A DNA stretch of 42,882 nt from NCBI GenBank assembly GCA_943704525.1, contig CALSCQ010000284.1:1-42882 (forward strand). Reading direction: 5' to 3'. The number at the start of each line of letters is the position of its first letter. Position 1 is the stretch's first letter. Origin of the DNA: Pigoraptor vietnamica (Eukaryota > Opisthokonta > Filasterea). The position numbers were made by a program, and so were the translations under genes. Positions 8,503 to 37,500 of this stretch are shown here, one piece after another. The notes below the pieces were generated by a model, which saw only the letters and a program-made list of their open reading frames with translations, had not been told where the DNA came from and ran no database searches.

Positions 8503-9139
8503 AGACTAGCTCTGTCCGTTATTAGGAAGTGCTTCATTGAAAGTAACTGAGACAGCTCTTACCTCGCCCGTCGATATCAGCGACACGCTTTGTTTGCCAA
8601 CAATGGGCGTACCCTATTTTCCCGACTAGTAACCTCTTCACTGGGATGATTTTATTGGAAAAGTGTGGAATTTTTCCTCGATTCTCGGGGCGTTTCCAAT
8701 AAAGAGGGTGGGCGAGAGTCACTCGCGCCCGTGAAATTGGAGCGCCCCTCGAGACGGACCCAAAATAAGCCGAAATCCAATTCACCATTGGCGGAATGTG
8801 GTAACACGGAAATGCCAACACGACTGAACTGCAAATTCGCACAGACGACGCACACAAGGCATGCATGCCAGCGAGATTGGACGCGCGCAGCCGAAAGTGA
8901 GGGCGCAATTCCACGCGCACAGACTTCAAAGTGCACGTGAGCGCGCTCTGTGTGCGAGCGGCGTATTTGTGGGGCCTGCTTACGTTGATTGGCTGCACTG
9001 CGGCGTGGACTACTCGAAGAATCCGTGTGTCGCTCCGTCAAACCATAGTGACCTCTGAGAATGGGATCCGGGTAGGCGTGCTTCTGACGACATACACTTT
9101 CGGTCGTGGGGGGGCCACGCGCCCTGTCCCACTGCGAAG
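8503..9139. other. Intergenic region between RhoGEF and the channel gene
   Basis: No coding sequence is seen. The region contains an 11-base inverted repeat carrying AATAAA on both strands (8651-8703), a CACGTGA at 8934-8940, and the 15-mer GTTGATTGGCTGCAC at 8984-8998 shared with the fascin promoter. Confidence 0.55.
8651..8703. terminator. Inverted repeat with AATAAA on both strands (possible poly(A) region)
   Basis: TTTATTGGAAA at 8651-8661 is the exact reverse complement of TTTCCAATAAA at 8693-8703. AATAAA therefore occurs on both strands, about 200 bases after the RhoGEF stop. A poly(A) role is plausible but unproven. Confidence 0.4.
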
Positions 9140-29068: not shown

Positions 29069-29588
29069 AAACGATGCGCGTTACTGCGTTACCGCTCGCG
29101 TTTTGCGGCCTGCGTTGCGTGTATTGTCTTATGCCCGGACGTGGGGCTGTGCTGGCGCAGCGACCCGTCTATGTCTGCCACCTTTTATAAAGAGTTGGAG
29201 GATATCGAGGAGATGAGGCTCACAGATCTCCGCCCTTGTTGGTGCATGAAGTTTGTGTGTATGATTGGATTTTATTGACAGTAGTGACGTCAGGCCGCCG
29301 GCCATTGTTTCACACGGCTTGCGATTCGGACCCACACTGGCGTGCGCCTGCGCCCATATTAGCACACACCGCCGTCCACTTCGCCCTCAGGTCGCACAGG
29401 TGTACCTTCATTTGTGTGGGGAATTGTATTTTGCTCCTTCGCCCGTCGTCGTTTGGCAAACTCAAACGCAGAGAGGCAATCACTGTGTGTAACTCTCCGT
29501 GCCCTTCGCATCCTCTTTCAACTTTCTGCATTGTAACAAGCGCGCGCTTTTTTCTTCTTAAGTCGGCGCCTGTCGTCTGTGCGCGCAG
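29069..29588. other. Intergenic region between TRP-like channel and NADK2
   Basis: The stretch is mostly 3' UTR and promoter. A TTTTATAAAG (29183-29192) lies about 400 bases before the NADK2 start, and a TTTTATT near 29270. No coding potential was recognised. Confidence 0.5.
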
Positions 29589-30986
29589 ATGGCGTGGGCG
29601 GCTCGACGGCCGCTTGCGTCGATGGCGCGGGGCGTCCTTCCACACCATCTCCCAATACGCCATACTCACTCGTCCGTCGCGATACGGGGCCCTTTCACGC
29701 TGTCTCCCTCGTTGTTGTCGTCTCCCCTTCGCGCGCGTGTGCATCCCTCCCCGATAGGCTCGGGTGTATCGGCGGCATGCTTCGGTACCAGACGCTTCTA
29801 CCTTTCGGCGCGCGCGGCGACGCCAAAGTATTGGACGTGGGAAGACGACTACGACATGGCGCAACCGGCCATGCGCACCGTCGACACGCTGCAGGAATCC
29901 GCAAAACAGGCGTCGGTGGCGTGCGTTGATGAGAGGTCGTCCGACGGGCGCCGGGTGTTTCCGCGGGTTCACATGCGCCGAGTGCTCGTCGTGTCCAAGC
30001 AGACGCGCTACGAGTACGAGCGCGCGCGGCACGAGGCATCCTCGGACGAGGACGTTGCGAAACTTCTCGCAATGCGGGGATCGGACTACGAGGGCCTGCG
30101 GCTGCGGCACGACATACACACGCGCGGTTTGGAGGTGATGATGCGCGAGATTGAGAGGCGGGGAATCGAGGCGCGCATTGTGCGCTCGTCGGAGCTGAGC
30201 GAGGACGACGTGCGGGGCGTCGACGCCGTGTTCGCCGCGGGTGGCGACGGCAACTTTCTGCACACGGCCGGCAGAATGTACGGCGACGTCCCCGCGATTG
30301 GCGTGAACACGGACCCGGAGCGGTCGGCGGGGCATCTGTGCATCCGGGTGGCGTGGCTCGGCTCGCTGTTGGACCGCGTGATCGCGGGCGACATGCGGTG
30401 GATGTGGCGGCAGCGCGTGCGCGTCACCATCGTGGACGGGAGCGGGCGCCAGACGGTGCTGCGCCCGCGCGCTCTCAACGAAATAATGGTGGCCGAGCTG
30501 AGCCCGTGGCGCACGTCGTACTACGAGATGTTCGCGGACGGGCGGGGCGGCGACAAGCAGAAGTCGTCGGGCCTCATCGTGTGCACGGGCACGGGGTCGA
30601 CTGCGTGGCTCACCAACATTGCCAAGATTGACGCCGAGAAGGTCCGCTCCATCCTCGAGTTTGCCGGGTGCGGCGACGACGTGCGCAGCGGCAACAAGGA
30701 CCCCGCGGCGATTGCGGCGGCGTACAACGCGTCGCTCACGTTCGACCCCTCGGAGCCCCGGATGCAGTTTGTGGTGCGCGAGCCCGTCGTCAATGGCATC
30801 TTCGGCGTGGGCCAGGAGCGCGGGTTTGCGCGGGAAATTGTCGTGCGCAGCCGCGGGTGGGACATGCGGCTGGTGATCGACGGCGCGAACGCCTTCCCCT
30901 TTAACGACGGGCGCTCGGCGTTCTTCCAAATCCACGAGAGCGACGCGCTGTTGACGCCCGCCAAGAACTGGCGCGATGATCCTTAG
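29589..30986 (+). CDS. NADK2: Mitochondrial-type NAD kinase, single exon
   Basis: This is one open frame of 465 residues with no intron, unlike every neighbour. The N-terminus is rich in Arg, Ser and Ala without acidic residues (MAWAARRPLASMARGVL...), as expected of a mitochondrial targeting peptide. The kinase core shows RRVLVVSKQTRYEYE, the signature AAGGDGNFLHTA (GGDGN at 218-222), GVNTDPERSAGHLC, RALNEIMVAE and SSGLIVCTGTGSTAW, and ends with FQIHESDALLTPAKNW. NADK2 phosphorylates NAD+ to NADP+ in mitochondria. ATGGCG again marks the start. Its stop lies only 62 bases from the stop of the opposite-strand patatin gene. A single exon may reflect intron loss through a cDNA. Confidence 0.93.
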   Translation: MAWAARRPLASMARGVLPHHLPIRHTHSSVAIRGPFTLSPSLLSSPLRARVHPSPIGSGVSAACFGTRRFYLSARAATPKYWTWEDDYDMAQPAMRTVDTLQESAKQASVACVDERSSDGRRVFPRVHMRRVLVVSKQTRYEYERARHEASSDEDVAKLLAMRGSDYEGLRLRHDIHTRGLEVMMREIERRGIEARIVRSSELSEDDVRGVDAVFAAGGDGNFLHTAGRMYGDVPAIGVNTDPERSAGHLCIRVAWLGSLLDRVIAGDMRWMWRQRVRVTIVDGSGRQTVLRPRALNEIMVAELSPWRTSYYEMFADGRGGDKQKSSGLIVCTGTGSTAWLTNIAKIDAEKVRSILEFAGCGDDVRSGNKDPAAIAAAYNASLTFDPSEPRMQFVVREPVVNGIFGVGQERGFAREIVVRSRGWDMRLVIDGANAFPFNDGRSAFFQIHESDALLTPAKNWRDDP

Positions 30987-31048: not shown

Positions 31049-34000
31049 CTACAGGACGGACATTCGCCGCCGTAGCGTGTGGTGCGGCCGTGGGTGCGTT
31101 TCGCCCGGATCTTCGTGAGACAGCGTCGCGTGGTGGTGGACTTCGCGGTGTCGCTCAATGTCCCGCGGGTCGTTGCCGTGCTGGCCGCGCGCGATCCGGT
31201 GGCACCGGTCGAGCGCCATCTCGATCTTGCACCGCGTGTGTATCGCGGAGATGTCTGCGGGGCGGTCAAGGCCAATACCGCGTGCTCAGGAGCGATGCAC
31301 AGACACAGCACGACATTGTTAGCGCGCGTGTGACCTCTGCGGATACACGGCCACGTGCTTCGCTCGCCGACGCGCAGGCATTCGCGGAGGGCCTCCTCGG
31401 ACGGGTTGGAGAGGACGCGGAGCAATTGGCGCCACCCGATGTCCGGTACGATGGTGACATCGCCCTCGTGGTGTTGCGTGAGGACCGGCTGGAGCTTGCG
31501 CGGGATAACTCCGAGCGCTGCGAGCTGCGTCGCCGGATTTCAATGAATTGTTGGGCTTTTCAATTGATAATGGCAGGAATTGCATGTGCTGGCAAGCGTT
31601 TGTTTTGTGTGTGCGCAAAATGCACCGAGCACAGCGGAGCAAACGAGCGACCATAACCTGCAACTAGCGAAGGCTGCGCTGAGTGCGTGCACGCACGTAG
31701 CAAAGACGGCCGCGCATACCTGATTCACCCTGTGCGTGGCTTCGGACAGCGCGAGGTGACGGAGGCCCGCAGCCCATCCGGAGTCGAGCGTGCGGCGCGT
31801 ACCTGTCATGAAGGGAATGACCTCGGGGTTCACCTGTGGAACAGACGTCGGATCAGCTCGAATCAGACACGTGTCCATTGACTCACTAAGGAACAGCACA
31901 CGGACAGTCACACAGAGAGCACGAGAACACAAAGGACACACGACAACCAGCACACTGCCTAAGGTCATCAGATACCACACCGCACGTATGCACACGCATC
32001 GCAACCGCAAACAGCGTTACACACAGCGTTACACACGCCCACCTGGGACACTATGAGGTGGTTGATGTTGAAGAGCTCCGCCAGGCGCGCCATCGGCAGA
32101 TCCGCCTCGATGGATGCCGTGGGCCAAGGGCGCGACGCCGGGTTCCAGTCGACGTGGTTGCCGAGGCTGTCGCGCGCCTTGCTGCAGTGTCGAGGCGGAC
32201 AGCGCAACACAGACAGTGAGTTCATGCAAGGGGAACGCACGACGGATGCACTCACATGCCCACACACTCAAACAGTGCACGCACGCACGCACGCACACAC
32301 ACGCAGCCCACGGTCGCAACTCACAGCTGCACCGATGCGTAGAAGAGCGGGCTTGAGCAGCTCGCAAGGGCAGCCGACCAAATTAGCACATTCGGCGCCG
32401 TGAGGTAGTTGAGCAGGCGCGGGAGTTCACTCCGCTCTGCGTCACAGCGAAATCACACTCAGCGCATGCTTCTGTTGTCTCTTACAAACAGCCAACACAA
32501 CATGAGAAAGACGCTGTGGGCAGAAACCACTCGCACGAGCCCAGCCCATGCCACCCACCCGTGGACGCGACGGTGATGTTAATGATGCGACCGGTGCGCT
32601 GGTATGCGTCGAGAAAGGTCACGTCGGTGCCAATGTTGGCCTTGATGAAGACGGCGAGTCTGGGTGAGAAATGTTGGATCAGAAATCATACACGAGTACA
32701 CACTTGCACGCACTCGCACACACCACACGGAGACGCCACCAAACACCCCTGAACATACGTGCGCTGGCAACAACGATTCGACGGGACCTTCGCCCCCACA
32801 TACGCTCGTACTCGCACACACCGCACACACTGATGCACACCGACCTTCCGGAGTCCATCAGCATGCCCTCTTTCAAGAGGCGCGCGATCTTCCGCTTTGC
32901 CGAACCGCGCTCAAGCCCTTGAAACGCGGAGAAGTCGATTGCGTTGGGCTCAAAGAGCGCGTCCATGTCCTCGTCGCGGTGTATGCCGATGCACGCGGCC
33001 ACGATGGCGCCGATCGCAGTGCCGCACAGCACGCGCGGCAGCAGCCCAAACTCGCGCAGGCACTTGACGACGCCAAAGTGATACCTGCCACAAAGCGCGA
33101 AGATAAGTCGGGGTTGAGACGCGGCCATGACACGCACGACCACGCGTCTTTTGGTCGCTGCCACGCGCGTTGAAGAAAAAAGAGCAACTGATTCAACAGT
33201 GAGGGCAATAGCTTACATGCCGAGGGACGCTCCGCCGCTGAGCACCAGCGCCGTTCGACCAAACGCCTGGCGCGCGTCTGCATAGATGCAAGGCGATAAA
33301 GAGAATGCGCGACATGAACGCTCAAAGACGCCACAAGTGCGTTTTGAGCATGCACACGGGCGTAGGAGAGAGAAGGAGGCTCGCAGGAGAAGCACACTAA
33401 AAGCAACGTCAAGCGCCCTCGAACACACACCGCTGAAGAAGCGCCCCTTATCGACGCCCCGCGGGGCACCCTCGGCCTCGCAGATGTCCGCGAGCGCGTG
33501 GCTCATCTCCTCGACGTAGTCCTCGATCACGGCCTTTGTGCCGACAAAGCAGTGCGTGTACAGCGGGCGCGCGTCGATGCCGCCCACGGTGCGCGCCATC
33601 CCCGCACGCACGAGAAACGCGAGGCCCTCGATGTCCTTGCGAAGACGCGCCGAGCGAAGCAGCGACAGACGGGTGAGGATGAGCTCGCCGTCGTACAGGT
33701 CGCTCTGAATCGTCCGCTTCCACTCGTTCAGACCTGCGCAGACAGACCGTCAGCGCCTTGATGCACACCATCTCATCCTCCACTCCCTTCTCCTTCCAAT
33801 GCACTCGCACACCTTCGACGCCGTCAAGCAGCAGCGCGGCCTCGTGCCACTCGCGGTATGAGCTTGCGTCGCGCATGCGCTGTGCCAGGATGCGCCGCAG
33901 TCCGTCTCGTCCACTGCTGCGGGACGGCCATGACGACGAGAGCAATCCCCACAGCGCGCGCGTGGGCGCAAACAGTAGGGCAAGCGCGGCGACAAAGAGC

Positions 34001-34101
34001 GCCGAGATGGCCGCGCGCACTGTTTCGCTTATTATGCGCGCGTGCAGGAGCACCCGCGAGAGCAGGCCGACGTTGCTGGGGAAGGCGACCTCGCTGTCCA
34101 T
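31049..34101 (-). CDS. Patatin/DUF3336 (SDP1/TGL-like) lipase homologue lacking the catalytic dyad
   Basis: Reverse exons 34101-33813, 33733-33431, 33277-33217, 33084-32845, 32659-32559, 32436-32325, 32181-32043, 31833-31720, 31524-31335, 31254-31049 give 584 residues. A hydrophobic stretch (ALFVAALALLFAP) lies near the N-terminus, followed by the DUF3336 region (LNEWKRTIQSDLYDGE...) and the patatin core: ALVLSGGASLGMYHFGVVK (oxyanion loop, intact), PRVLCGTAIGAIVAA, TDVTFLDAYQRTGRIINITV, LLNYLTAPNVLIWSAALASC, LPMARLAELFNINHLIVSQV, ATHRVNQ and GERSTWP. In active relatives the elbow is GxSxG and the dyad Asp sits in DGS. Here they are GTAIG (Ala241) and TAS (Thr390-Ala391). The fold is kept but both catalytic residues are gone. 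Active relatives hydrolyse triacylglycerol on lipid droplets; a structural or regulatory role is inferred. Confidence 0.9.
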
Positions 34102-34510: not shown

Positions 34511-37500
34511 TCACACCGACGAAACACGCGCGCCCTCATACGAATAATCGTGGTCATCGACCGAAACAACGAACGACGCCGGTGGCGGGCGTGTCGGCTC
34601 GGGCACCGATGCGCCCTTCAGGGACTCGCGATACGCGGCAGAGAGCCTGTCCAGCCGCACAATCGCGTCGAGTGCGGACATTCGGTGCCGGGGGTTGTGC
34701 GCCCAACACGTTTCAAAAAAGTCCGCATACTCGGGCGACACGCGACGAGGAATTCGCGGTCGCAGTCCTACATATGGTCCGATGTGTCAGAATAGATTGG
34801 CTACGAGCGCCGTTGCAGTATCCACAATTTCAGCGAAAAGAGGACTGCCCGCAACGATTGCTTCACCGTGCCAACAACGTACCTTCGGTGACCATCCCGA
34901 CGAGCGAGAGCCAGTCGAGATTTCTCTCGGCATACGGCACGGCAAACAGAAGCAGCTCGTACGCCACCATTCCCAAGCCGAAGACATCGCTTGCGGACGT
35001 CAGGTCGTGGACGGATCCCCTGAAGGAAAACGAGGCGATGCGACAGTCAATTCACCTGGGAGGCCGGCAGCCAAGGCGCAAACTGCAGCACGCACGCAGT
35101 GGGACGCTGCTGAGAGAGAGCAATGGAACATATCGCAACACGCACTTGAGATACTCCGGGGGCGTCCAGTAGCCCGACGATTCCGCCTCTGACAGCATGA
35201 GTCCAAAGTCGCCGATTTTGATGCGCCAGGCCTCGGTGATCTGTTAAATCAATGTGTTATCAGCAAGGGGGGGGGGGGGGGGGGGGGGGGGGGGATGCAC
35301 GTGCGCCAACAATTGTGCAAACCGCGCGCGCACTCCCTGGACAGTCCTTCGGCTGTGTGCGTGCAGTCCTTCGGCTGTGTTCGTCCTCGAATGACACCCA
35401 CCCACATACACCCGGGGTTGATGTTGGCGTGGATGACGGGCGGGCAGCGATTGTGCAGGTACGCGAGCGCCTTCGCAACGTCCGTAACCATCACAATCCG
35501 CCGCTCAAACGTCATCTCGTGCGCCCACATCGTCCCCTGCGGCGGAGGCACCGGGTCTCTGGACTCCCCCTCGAGTGCCATTGCGGCGCGCAGCACGGGA
35601 CGCAGCGGACCGCGCGCGGGGTTCTCAAACACAATCACGGGTTCGACCCGGTCGAGGCACATGCCGAGCATTTCGAGGACGTACGGGTGCCGGAGTTGTC
35701 TGGACAGATGGGCGCCGTCAGAACCATTGCCCACCCACCGAACTATCACGTAAATCAATGCGGGTCACAGGCGCACAACGCGCTCCAAACCCACATGCGC
35801 ACGGCGAGGTCGGCGCGCAGATCGAGCCACCGCGCCTCCTGTCGCATGATCTGCGCGGGCATCTTGCGGATGGCCACGCGGATGCCGTTCCACACGCCAC
35901 GGTGGACGACGCCCGAGTACATGGTCGCGTTCGGAATTTCCTGCGGGACATACGCCGGTACAAAACAAACGAAGACAGTGAGTCAAACGCAGAAGACTAG
36001 CACACACAAACTGAGGGCGTGCAACAGCGAATAACATGAGTCAAATGGCTCATGCGCACAACACCAGCACACAGCGTGCACAACACACAACCCACGTCAA
36101 GCACGTCCAGCGAAGACCCGTCAATCTTCCAGAACGAGAGCAACGACAGCGACATGCGCTTGCCGTTGTGCCTCGCCCCTCCGGGCGCCCGCAGTATCAT
36201 GGGCCGGTCCGCGTCCTTCTCCGCTAGGTGCACATCGCCAGGGCTCGACACTTCGCCTCCCACGCCCGCGCCGTCCCCGGTACCGTCCTGCTGGTGGCGA
36301 GGCACCTGCGGACTGACGGGGATGGCCGTGTTCTTCGCAAGCAATGGATACCGCCGTTGCGACAGAGAGGACGGCTTGACCTGCGGAACAATGTATGCGC
36401 GCCACTTAATTTCGTTGCAACAATCGCGCATCCCTTATGGACGACAGGCACGCACCTGCCACACATTTATGGGAGCGATCGTGCTGACGGTCGCCCTGCG
36501 CCGAAGGCTGCTGTACGTCGCGGTGGACTGGACCGACCCCTCGCGTCCAATGCCAGCAAGCGAAGGGCCCGTCGGCGCAAGCACTTCCCCTGCTTCTGCA
36601 AAGTGGATCTCGGACATTCGCTCCGGCGGAAGCTCCGACACGCACGTGGCCATCGCTGAGTGCGTCATCAGCACCTGCGAGACGACACCAGTCACGTGCA
36701 CGCACGTTTGACACCCAGTGAGTGTGGATGCCGAGCACAAGCGCAAGCACTTTGAAACAAGCTCAGAAGCGCCCACCGCCCAACATTAATGGCGCATACA
36801 ATCTTCAACAGTAGCGCAAGTAACATCACATCAGCCACCCAGTGCCCACGTAGCACAAAAAACGTCACATCAACCACGGTAATCCCCACCTGTCCAAATC
36901 CCGCCGCTTTCCGCAGCAGTGCCGCCGTCTTCACTATCGTGCCTCGGTAAGAGGCACGCGAAGGTAGCTGGAATTCAAACGCGTCGGACGGGGGCCCAGC
37001 ACCCGCAGACGCCTCTCCCTTCTCCGAACCGACAATGGCACGCTCGCATTCGCCGTAATCGAGGCCAACACGGAGGGCGAGACCGCGAAATACGGGGCTG
37101 CTACTGTCGAGCGGAGGCGAAAGGGAAGCAGGGGAAAGCGTGTGGGGCGGTTCGAGAATGCTCAGAGCCATTTCGGAGTCGGCGTCCGCACCGAGGGCAG
37201 CCACCGCCTCCATGTGGCGCGTCGCACCGTCCGCCAGCACAGGCGCGCACAGCGGGACCGCAAGGAGGTCGTCGGGCCAGTCGAGCGCAAGAAGGGACGT
37301 CTGGCAATCGCACGCCCACATCACGGCATCCGACGCATTCTTGAACACGGCCACTGCGGCAACGACGGGACGCTTAGAAAACGCACACACGCACACACGC
37401 ACACACTCTTTCATGCACTCGAATCACGAGGCCACAGGTTCGATACCCACCTAGTTTTTCGACTTCCCATCGCACTTCGTACCCGCTGCGCAGCTCCAAG

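Follow-up and report, generated by a model that had tools for sequence, protein, structure and literature searches.

An open DUF3336-patatin gene of Pigoraptor vietnamica with both catalytic dyad residues replaced

Here, we describe a gene of the filasterean Pigoraptor vietnamica whose product belongs to the DUF3336 branch of the patatins and has lost both the serine and the aspartate of the catalytic dyad, though its oxyanion loop and most family-invariant residues are retained. Patatins without the catalytic serine are already known; the present one belongs to the DUF3336 branch and both of its dyad residues are gone, and no report of such a protein in this branch was found among the open PMC literature searched. 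The gene lies in the window analysed, that is, the whole 42,882-nucleotide contig CALSCQ010000284.1 (C105), which belongs to an assembly of 32.5 Mb in 1395 contigs. Judging from the sequence, there is about an even chance that the C105 protein is a pseudolipase retained for its fold, which would lie on the surface of the ER or of lipid droplets, bind lipid and/or a partner and modulate an active paralogue.

The gene occupies the minus strand from 34101 to 31049 and consists of ten exons and nine introns, encoding 584 amino acids followed by a stop codon. Introns are 79 to 209 bases long, all nine carry GT..CAG ends and their phases agree. The exon model was drawn by hand and then compared with spliced protein-to-DNA alignments. 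With the paralogue C261 from the same genome as query, the inner borders of all ten exons were reproduced; the bacterial homologue L043 agreed everywhere but at the exon 8/9 borders, and the bacterial homologue L084 disagreed where exons 4/5 and exons 8/9 meet and stopped short of exon 10. As a consistency check, the derived C105 protein used as query returned identical exons. The initial annotation had proposed an undamaged frame over ten exons, and this is borne out by 584 stop-free codons and intact splice sites. The exons are as follows.

33813 to 34101, minus strand: exon 1, starting with the ATG at 34101 and encoding the N-terminal hydrophobic segment and the start of DUF3336; its 3′ border is also given by C261, L084 and L043
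33431 to 33733, minus strand: exon 2, from the hand model and the spliced alignments
33217 to 33277, minus strand: exon 3, encoding the oxyanion loop SGGASLGM (aa 211-218), whose final base lies in exon 4
32845 to 33084, minus strand: exon 4, whose donor L084 puts 16 bases further on
32559 to 32659, minus strand: exon 5, whose acceptor L084 puts 19 bases further on
32325 to 32436, minus strand: exon 6, from the hand model and the spliced alignments
32043 to 32181, minus strand: exon 7, from the hand model and the spliced alignments
31720 to 31833, minus strand: exon 8, whose 3′ border differs for the L084 and L043 queries
31335 to 31524, minus strand: exon 9, whose borders are less sure by the bacterial queries
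31049 to 31254, minus strand: exon 10 and stop codon, whose 5′ border is also given by C261 and L043

Just downstream of the gene and convergent with it, a long open frame on the plus strand (29562-30986) resembles NAD kinases by eye through GGDGNFL...GVNTDPERSAGHLCI; this frame gave no Pfam match at E 0.001. On the other side, a minus-strand frame at 34511-34786 resembles by eye the end of a protein kinase, and its 91-aa piece gave no Pfam match. Further on, a run of 28 G (35267-35294) lies within an intron-like stretch.

Two Pfam domains were recognised in the C105 protein, DUF3336 (PF11815) at aa 67-196, with 113.2 bits against a cut-off of 25, and Patatin (PF01734) at aa 208-370, with 77.2 bits against a cut-off of 27.7, the latter covering positions 1-172 of the 191 of the profile and ending before the Asp motif. 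The protein has no HX4D (H....D) motif. Ahead of both domains, aa 27-45 form a hydrophobic stretch that is a possible membrane or lipid-droplet anchor, and an N-terminal hydrophobic stretch is common to the three paralogues examined in this respect (C434, C988 and C33). These elements and the motifs considered below map to the following positions.

33967 to 34023, minus strand: hydrophobic stretch, aa 27-45 (TVRAAISALFVAALALLFA), with a 19-residue Kyte-Doolittle mean of 2.12, the maximum of the protein
33435 to 33903, minus strand: DUF3336 codons (PF11815), interrupted by intron 1 (33734-33812)
33009 to 33023, minus strand: nucleophile elbow GTAIG, aa 239-243, with Ala241 encoded by GCG (33017-33015) where 83 of 83 homologues have Ser
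32112 to 32120, minus strand: TAS in place of DG[ST], aa 390-392, with Thr390 (ACG) and Ala391 (GCA) where 83 of 83 homologues have Asp and Gly
31822 to 31824, minus strand: Glu419 in place of the His of the NPH motif, which is His in 83 of 83 homologues and Leu in L128

The comparison set of 83 comprises 80 bacterial DUF3336-patatins and the motif-intact paralogues C261, C988 and C33; the 80 bacterial loci were taken from 453 relatives for their highest scores, a choice that may leave less similar, possibly dead members under-sampled. In the multiple alignment, every one of the 80 bacterial homologues, like the three complete paralogues, has Ser at column 241 and Asp-Gly at columns 390-391. 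Flanking the TAS motif, the W388 column holds W in 47 and F in 33 of the 80 bacterial homologues, and D396, L397 and P398 are each found in 80/80. In the three spliced alignments with C261, L043 and L084 as queries, GTAIG stands opposite GxSxG (GSSVG, GSSAG, GASAG) and TAS opposite DG[ST]. Hence the hand model, the multiple alignment and the three spliced alignments agree on Ala241 in what should be GxSxG, and Thr390-Ala391 align with the Asp-Gly of every homologue, as the initial annotation had claimed for both motifs. Altogether, the C105 protein retains 30 of the 34 columns invariant in the 83, among them S211, G212 and G213 of the oxyanion loop, and the four that are lost are S241A, D390T, G391A and H419E. 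Because C33 also departs at four, this count is not extreme (leave-one-out departures were two for C261, one for C988 and zero to two for bacteria), and the unusual part is the identity of the residues: by hand arithmetic, the chance that four random losses among 34 include both dyad residues is 6/561 = 0.011. H419E is weak evidence because L128 (G001:C3), a divergent second DUF3336-patatin copy of an Alcanivoracaceae genome, has intact GxSxG and DGS motifs and NPL for NPH.

Could the lost motifs be an artefact of sequencing, assembly or the splice model? The assembly is in many contigs and a collapse at CA-repeats is possible in the sister locus C434. However, by hand count the four substitutions require seven or more base changes, spread over four codons and unaccompanied by any indel, which makes sequencing noise unlikely, and every motif falls within exons that bacterial queries also recover. 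In addition, a DNA search of the genome found no second copy of the locus, just short pieces of 73-91% identity. We consider an artefact hardly credible.

The placement of the lost residues was read from an AlphaFold2 model of bacterial L084 (input of 24 of the 80 homologues; pLDDT 81.8). This model has a patatin fold, with PlpD, patatin-17 and CapV (5fqu, 4pkb and 9kej) retrieved by Foldseek at E of about 1e-8, target TM of 0.48-0.65, rmsd of 8-11 and a low identity of 13-22%. Its elbow Ser178 follows the strand 173-176 and Asp318 lies at the end of the strand 316-318, whereas NPH (345-347), after the strand 336-342, is of low confidence and borders a stretch whose pLDDT falls below 50. The two lost dyad residues would thus map to the ends of strands, which is where active-site residues are expected. 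The C105 protein itself has PlpD as its only PDB sequence match at E 0.1 (E 5.7e-5, aa 205-249). Wild-type PlpD, patatin-17 and CapV carry the dyad, and none of them is known to have a DUF3336; 9kej is an S58A form according to the structure title.

A DUF3336 search of the genome gave five loci, C105, C434, C261, C988 and C33. Three of them combine GxSxG with DGS, namely C261 (GSSVG), C988 (GTSAG) and C33 (GTSGG), so that the active paralogue which the initial annotation had imagined as a regulatory target has three candidates by motif in the same genome. The genome also encodes a patatin without a DUF3336 match, L021 (C1119:18647-19914), with intact GISAGS and DGG motifs, and another patatin match was seen on C887. 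Outside the genome, no relatives were found in a viral contig collection with either the C105 protein (4 pattern stretches) or the alignment (57 stretches), and the sole match in a plasmid collection was a bacterial DUF3336 protein in four Acinetobacter records, with no orthologue. A tree of 20 of the 80 bacterial proteins and the five own-genome copies joins C434 to the C105 gene as its sister with support of 100/98; in the same tree C988 and C33 form long branches and come together. The C105 and C434 proteins share 53% identity over 357 residues. C434 has its Ser elbow intact (GASIG), and at the 19 of the 34 invariant columns that it covers it has lost none. Because C434 has this serine, its loss in the C105 copy most simply postdates the C105/C434 split. 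In its contig, C434 (C434:8692-9139, L019) is without the whole Asp segment. Its coding sequence passes from GDITFQ directly to AAEFGVFP, and the two are separated (8799 to 8962) by some 160 CA-rich bases that include a GC donor. An assembly-wide search for the missing exons with the C105 piece gave 12 scored candidates, all of them C105, C261, C988 or C33. Such a gap could reflect either genuine loss of the exons or a collapse of the assembly between repeats.

Is the C105 gene maintained or decaying? Its exons have a GC3 of 0.83, compared with 0.77-0.81 in the motif-intact paralogues and 0.80 in C434, and its introns have a GC content of 0.56. Where C434 and C261 are identical, the C105 copy has changed at 45 of 162 columns (28%), and none of the 30 other family invariants has changed, these columns being slow by choice. 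It evolves faster than its sister, with 45 unique changes against 21 in a Tajima test (p=0.003) and a branch length of 0.93 against 0.39 in the tree. Changes are more frequent in the Asp region (aa 355-422), where 12 of 28 columns identical among intact paralogues were lost versus 16 of 79 elsewhere (p=0.025, with region borders set post hoc), and this excess is absent when columns at 95% in bacteria are used instead (6/22 versus 18/81). The NG86 comparison with paralogues gave pS of 0.55-0.66 and a dN/dS of 0.37 against C434, ratios that are unusable as a test of selection because synonymous sites look saturated. We also simulated neutral evolution at 0.08 and, with 300 runs each, at 0.12, 0.2, 0.3 and 0.45 substitutions per site. 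At 0.12 per site or more, where the mean amino-acid change is at least 22%, at most 1.7% of the runs remained stop-free, and 0/300 at each of the four divergences were stop-free with at least 30 of the 34 invariants; at 0.08 per site, 4% were.

These data bear on the possibility that the C105 gene is a young pseudogene, which would have lost catalysis and be drifting with a frame that is open by happenstance. The faster evolution relative to C434 and the altered Asp segment fit early decay, a small fraction of the neutral runs at the lowest divergence keep frame and invariants as C105 does, and, because C434 is also without an Asp segment in the assembly, the whole C105/C434 subclade may be decaying. 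On the contrary, 584 open codons, nine of nine canonical introns and GC3 at the level of intact copies speak against drift, 30 of 34 invariants survive on a long branch and the neutral simulations at higher divergence also count against this explanation, which we regard as improbable. That the gene is still under selection, as the initial annotation had deduced from the undamaged frame, is well supported by the sequence features considered here (invariants, open frame, splice sites, GC3 and simulations), and it stops short of formal proof. The accompanying claim of a well-kept rest of the fold has to be qualified, since the Asp segment is altered and the protein evolves at about twice its sister's rate.

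What might such a protein do? Ester hydrolysis by patatins is established Ser-Asp dyad chemistry, and the C105 protein should not hydrolyse acyl esters by this mechanism because none of Ser, Asp and the adjoining Gly is retained. One alternative is an acyl-transfer enzyme acting through other residues, similar to the lysophosphatidic-acid acyltransferase side activity reported for yeast Tgl4 and Tgl5. According to PMC7613133, Tgl4 and Tgl5 show acyltransferase activity and Tgl4 has no HX4D, so that the absence of this motif from C105 counts less against acyl transfer than it would otherwise; nevertheless, the changes extend to the Ser position, the Asp and the Gly next to it, and we find this reading very unlikely. 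The retained fold and oxyanion loop, together with the hydrophobic N-terminus, would rather indicate a binding role. The simplest such role is that of a maintained pseudolipase acting alone as a lipid or droplet binder (sensor, coat or transfer protein) and leaving the paralogues untouched. It is consistent with the loop and invariants kept in spite of the lost dyad, with the N-terminal hydrophobic segment and with the phospholipid binding suggested for the Ser-less patatin TgPL1 (PMC10513453); against it, the surroundings of the Asp motif are the part most altered relative to the paralogues. We rank it next after the tuning of C261 and, taken by itself, consider it rather unlikely.

In the reading that we prefer, the C105 gene would be a duplicate of a gene of the DUF3336-patatin triacylglycerol-lipase type from which the Ser-Asp dyad chemistry has gone. 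The N-terminal hydrophobic segment would hold the protein on the surface of the ER or of lipid droplets, even though a hydrophobic N-terminus alone is no proof of droplet targeting. There, the protein would bind lipid and/or a partner, and this binding would tune an active paralogue, of which C261 is the nearest complete motif-intact candidate, possibly by competing with it for space on the droplet, a cofactor or a place in a dimer. Regulation of a paralogue is the weakest step and, among the possible binding roles, falls somewhat short of an even chance. A bolder proposal, which we consider speculative and doubtful, is that C105 and C434 together constitute a pseudolipase branch, arisen by point changes in one copy and by exon deletion between CA-rich introns in the other, whose members would jointly act as non-catalytic droplet-surface regulators of C261. 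If true, this branch would represent a layer of control of fat breakdown undescribed for the SDP1/TGL family. The case of C105 is clear and testable, but concerns a single locus.

How does the C105 protein compare with known systems? It matches the profile PF11815 followed by PF01734, the architecture of the triacylglycerol lipases of the SDP1 and yeast Tgl3-Tgl4-Tgl5 type. Plants and fungi draw major lipases of their oil bodies from the DUF3336 branch. C105 departs from the 83 homologues compared at both dyad residues, at the DGS glycine and at the NPH histidine. A non-canonical elbow is also found in the plant pPLAIII group, which is another patatin subfamily than the DUF3336 branch. According to PMC7284883, the pPLAIII elbow reads GxGxG in place of GxSxG and pPLAs are termed acyl-hydrolysing enzymes. 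PNPLA3-ATGL and ABHD5 offer a model of how a droplet lipase can be tuned, whether by a patatin paralogue or by a protein of hydrolase fold that is itself dead. PNPLA3, ATGL and ABHD5 are animal proteins not known to carry DUF3336, and PNPLA3 itself has catalytic residues. ABHD5 is a hydrolase fold without nucleophile that co-activates PNPLA2 (PMC12871566) and PNPLA3 restrains ATGL (PMC9818421). Toxoplasma TgPL1 is described as a protein without the catalytic serine and without PLA2 activity, proposed to bind phospholipids or to help other enzymes (PMC10513453); its other catalytic residues are reportedly present, whereas C105 is without both Ser and Asp. By analogy with these precedents for non-catalytic control (TgPL1, ABHD5 and PNPLA3), our preferred candidate is a pseudolipase at the surface of droplets, with C261 as a possible target of its tuning. 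Control of fat breakdown by a non-catalytic lipase relative is known in animals and a Ser-less patatin in a parasite, both in other patatin branches, and a pseudolipase of the DUF3336 branch would suggest that such non-catalytic control arose there too.
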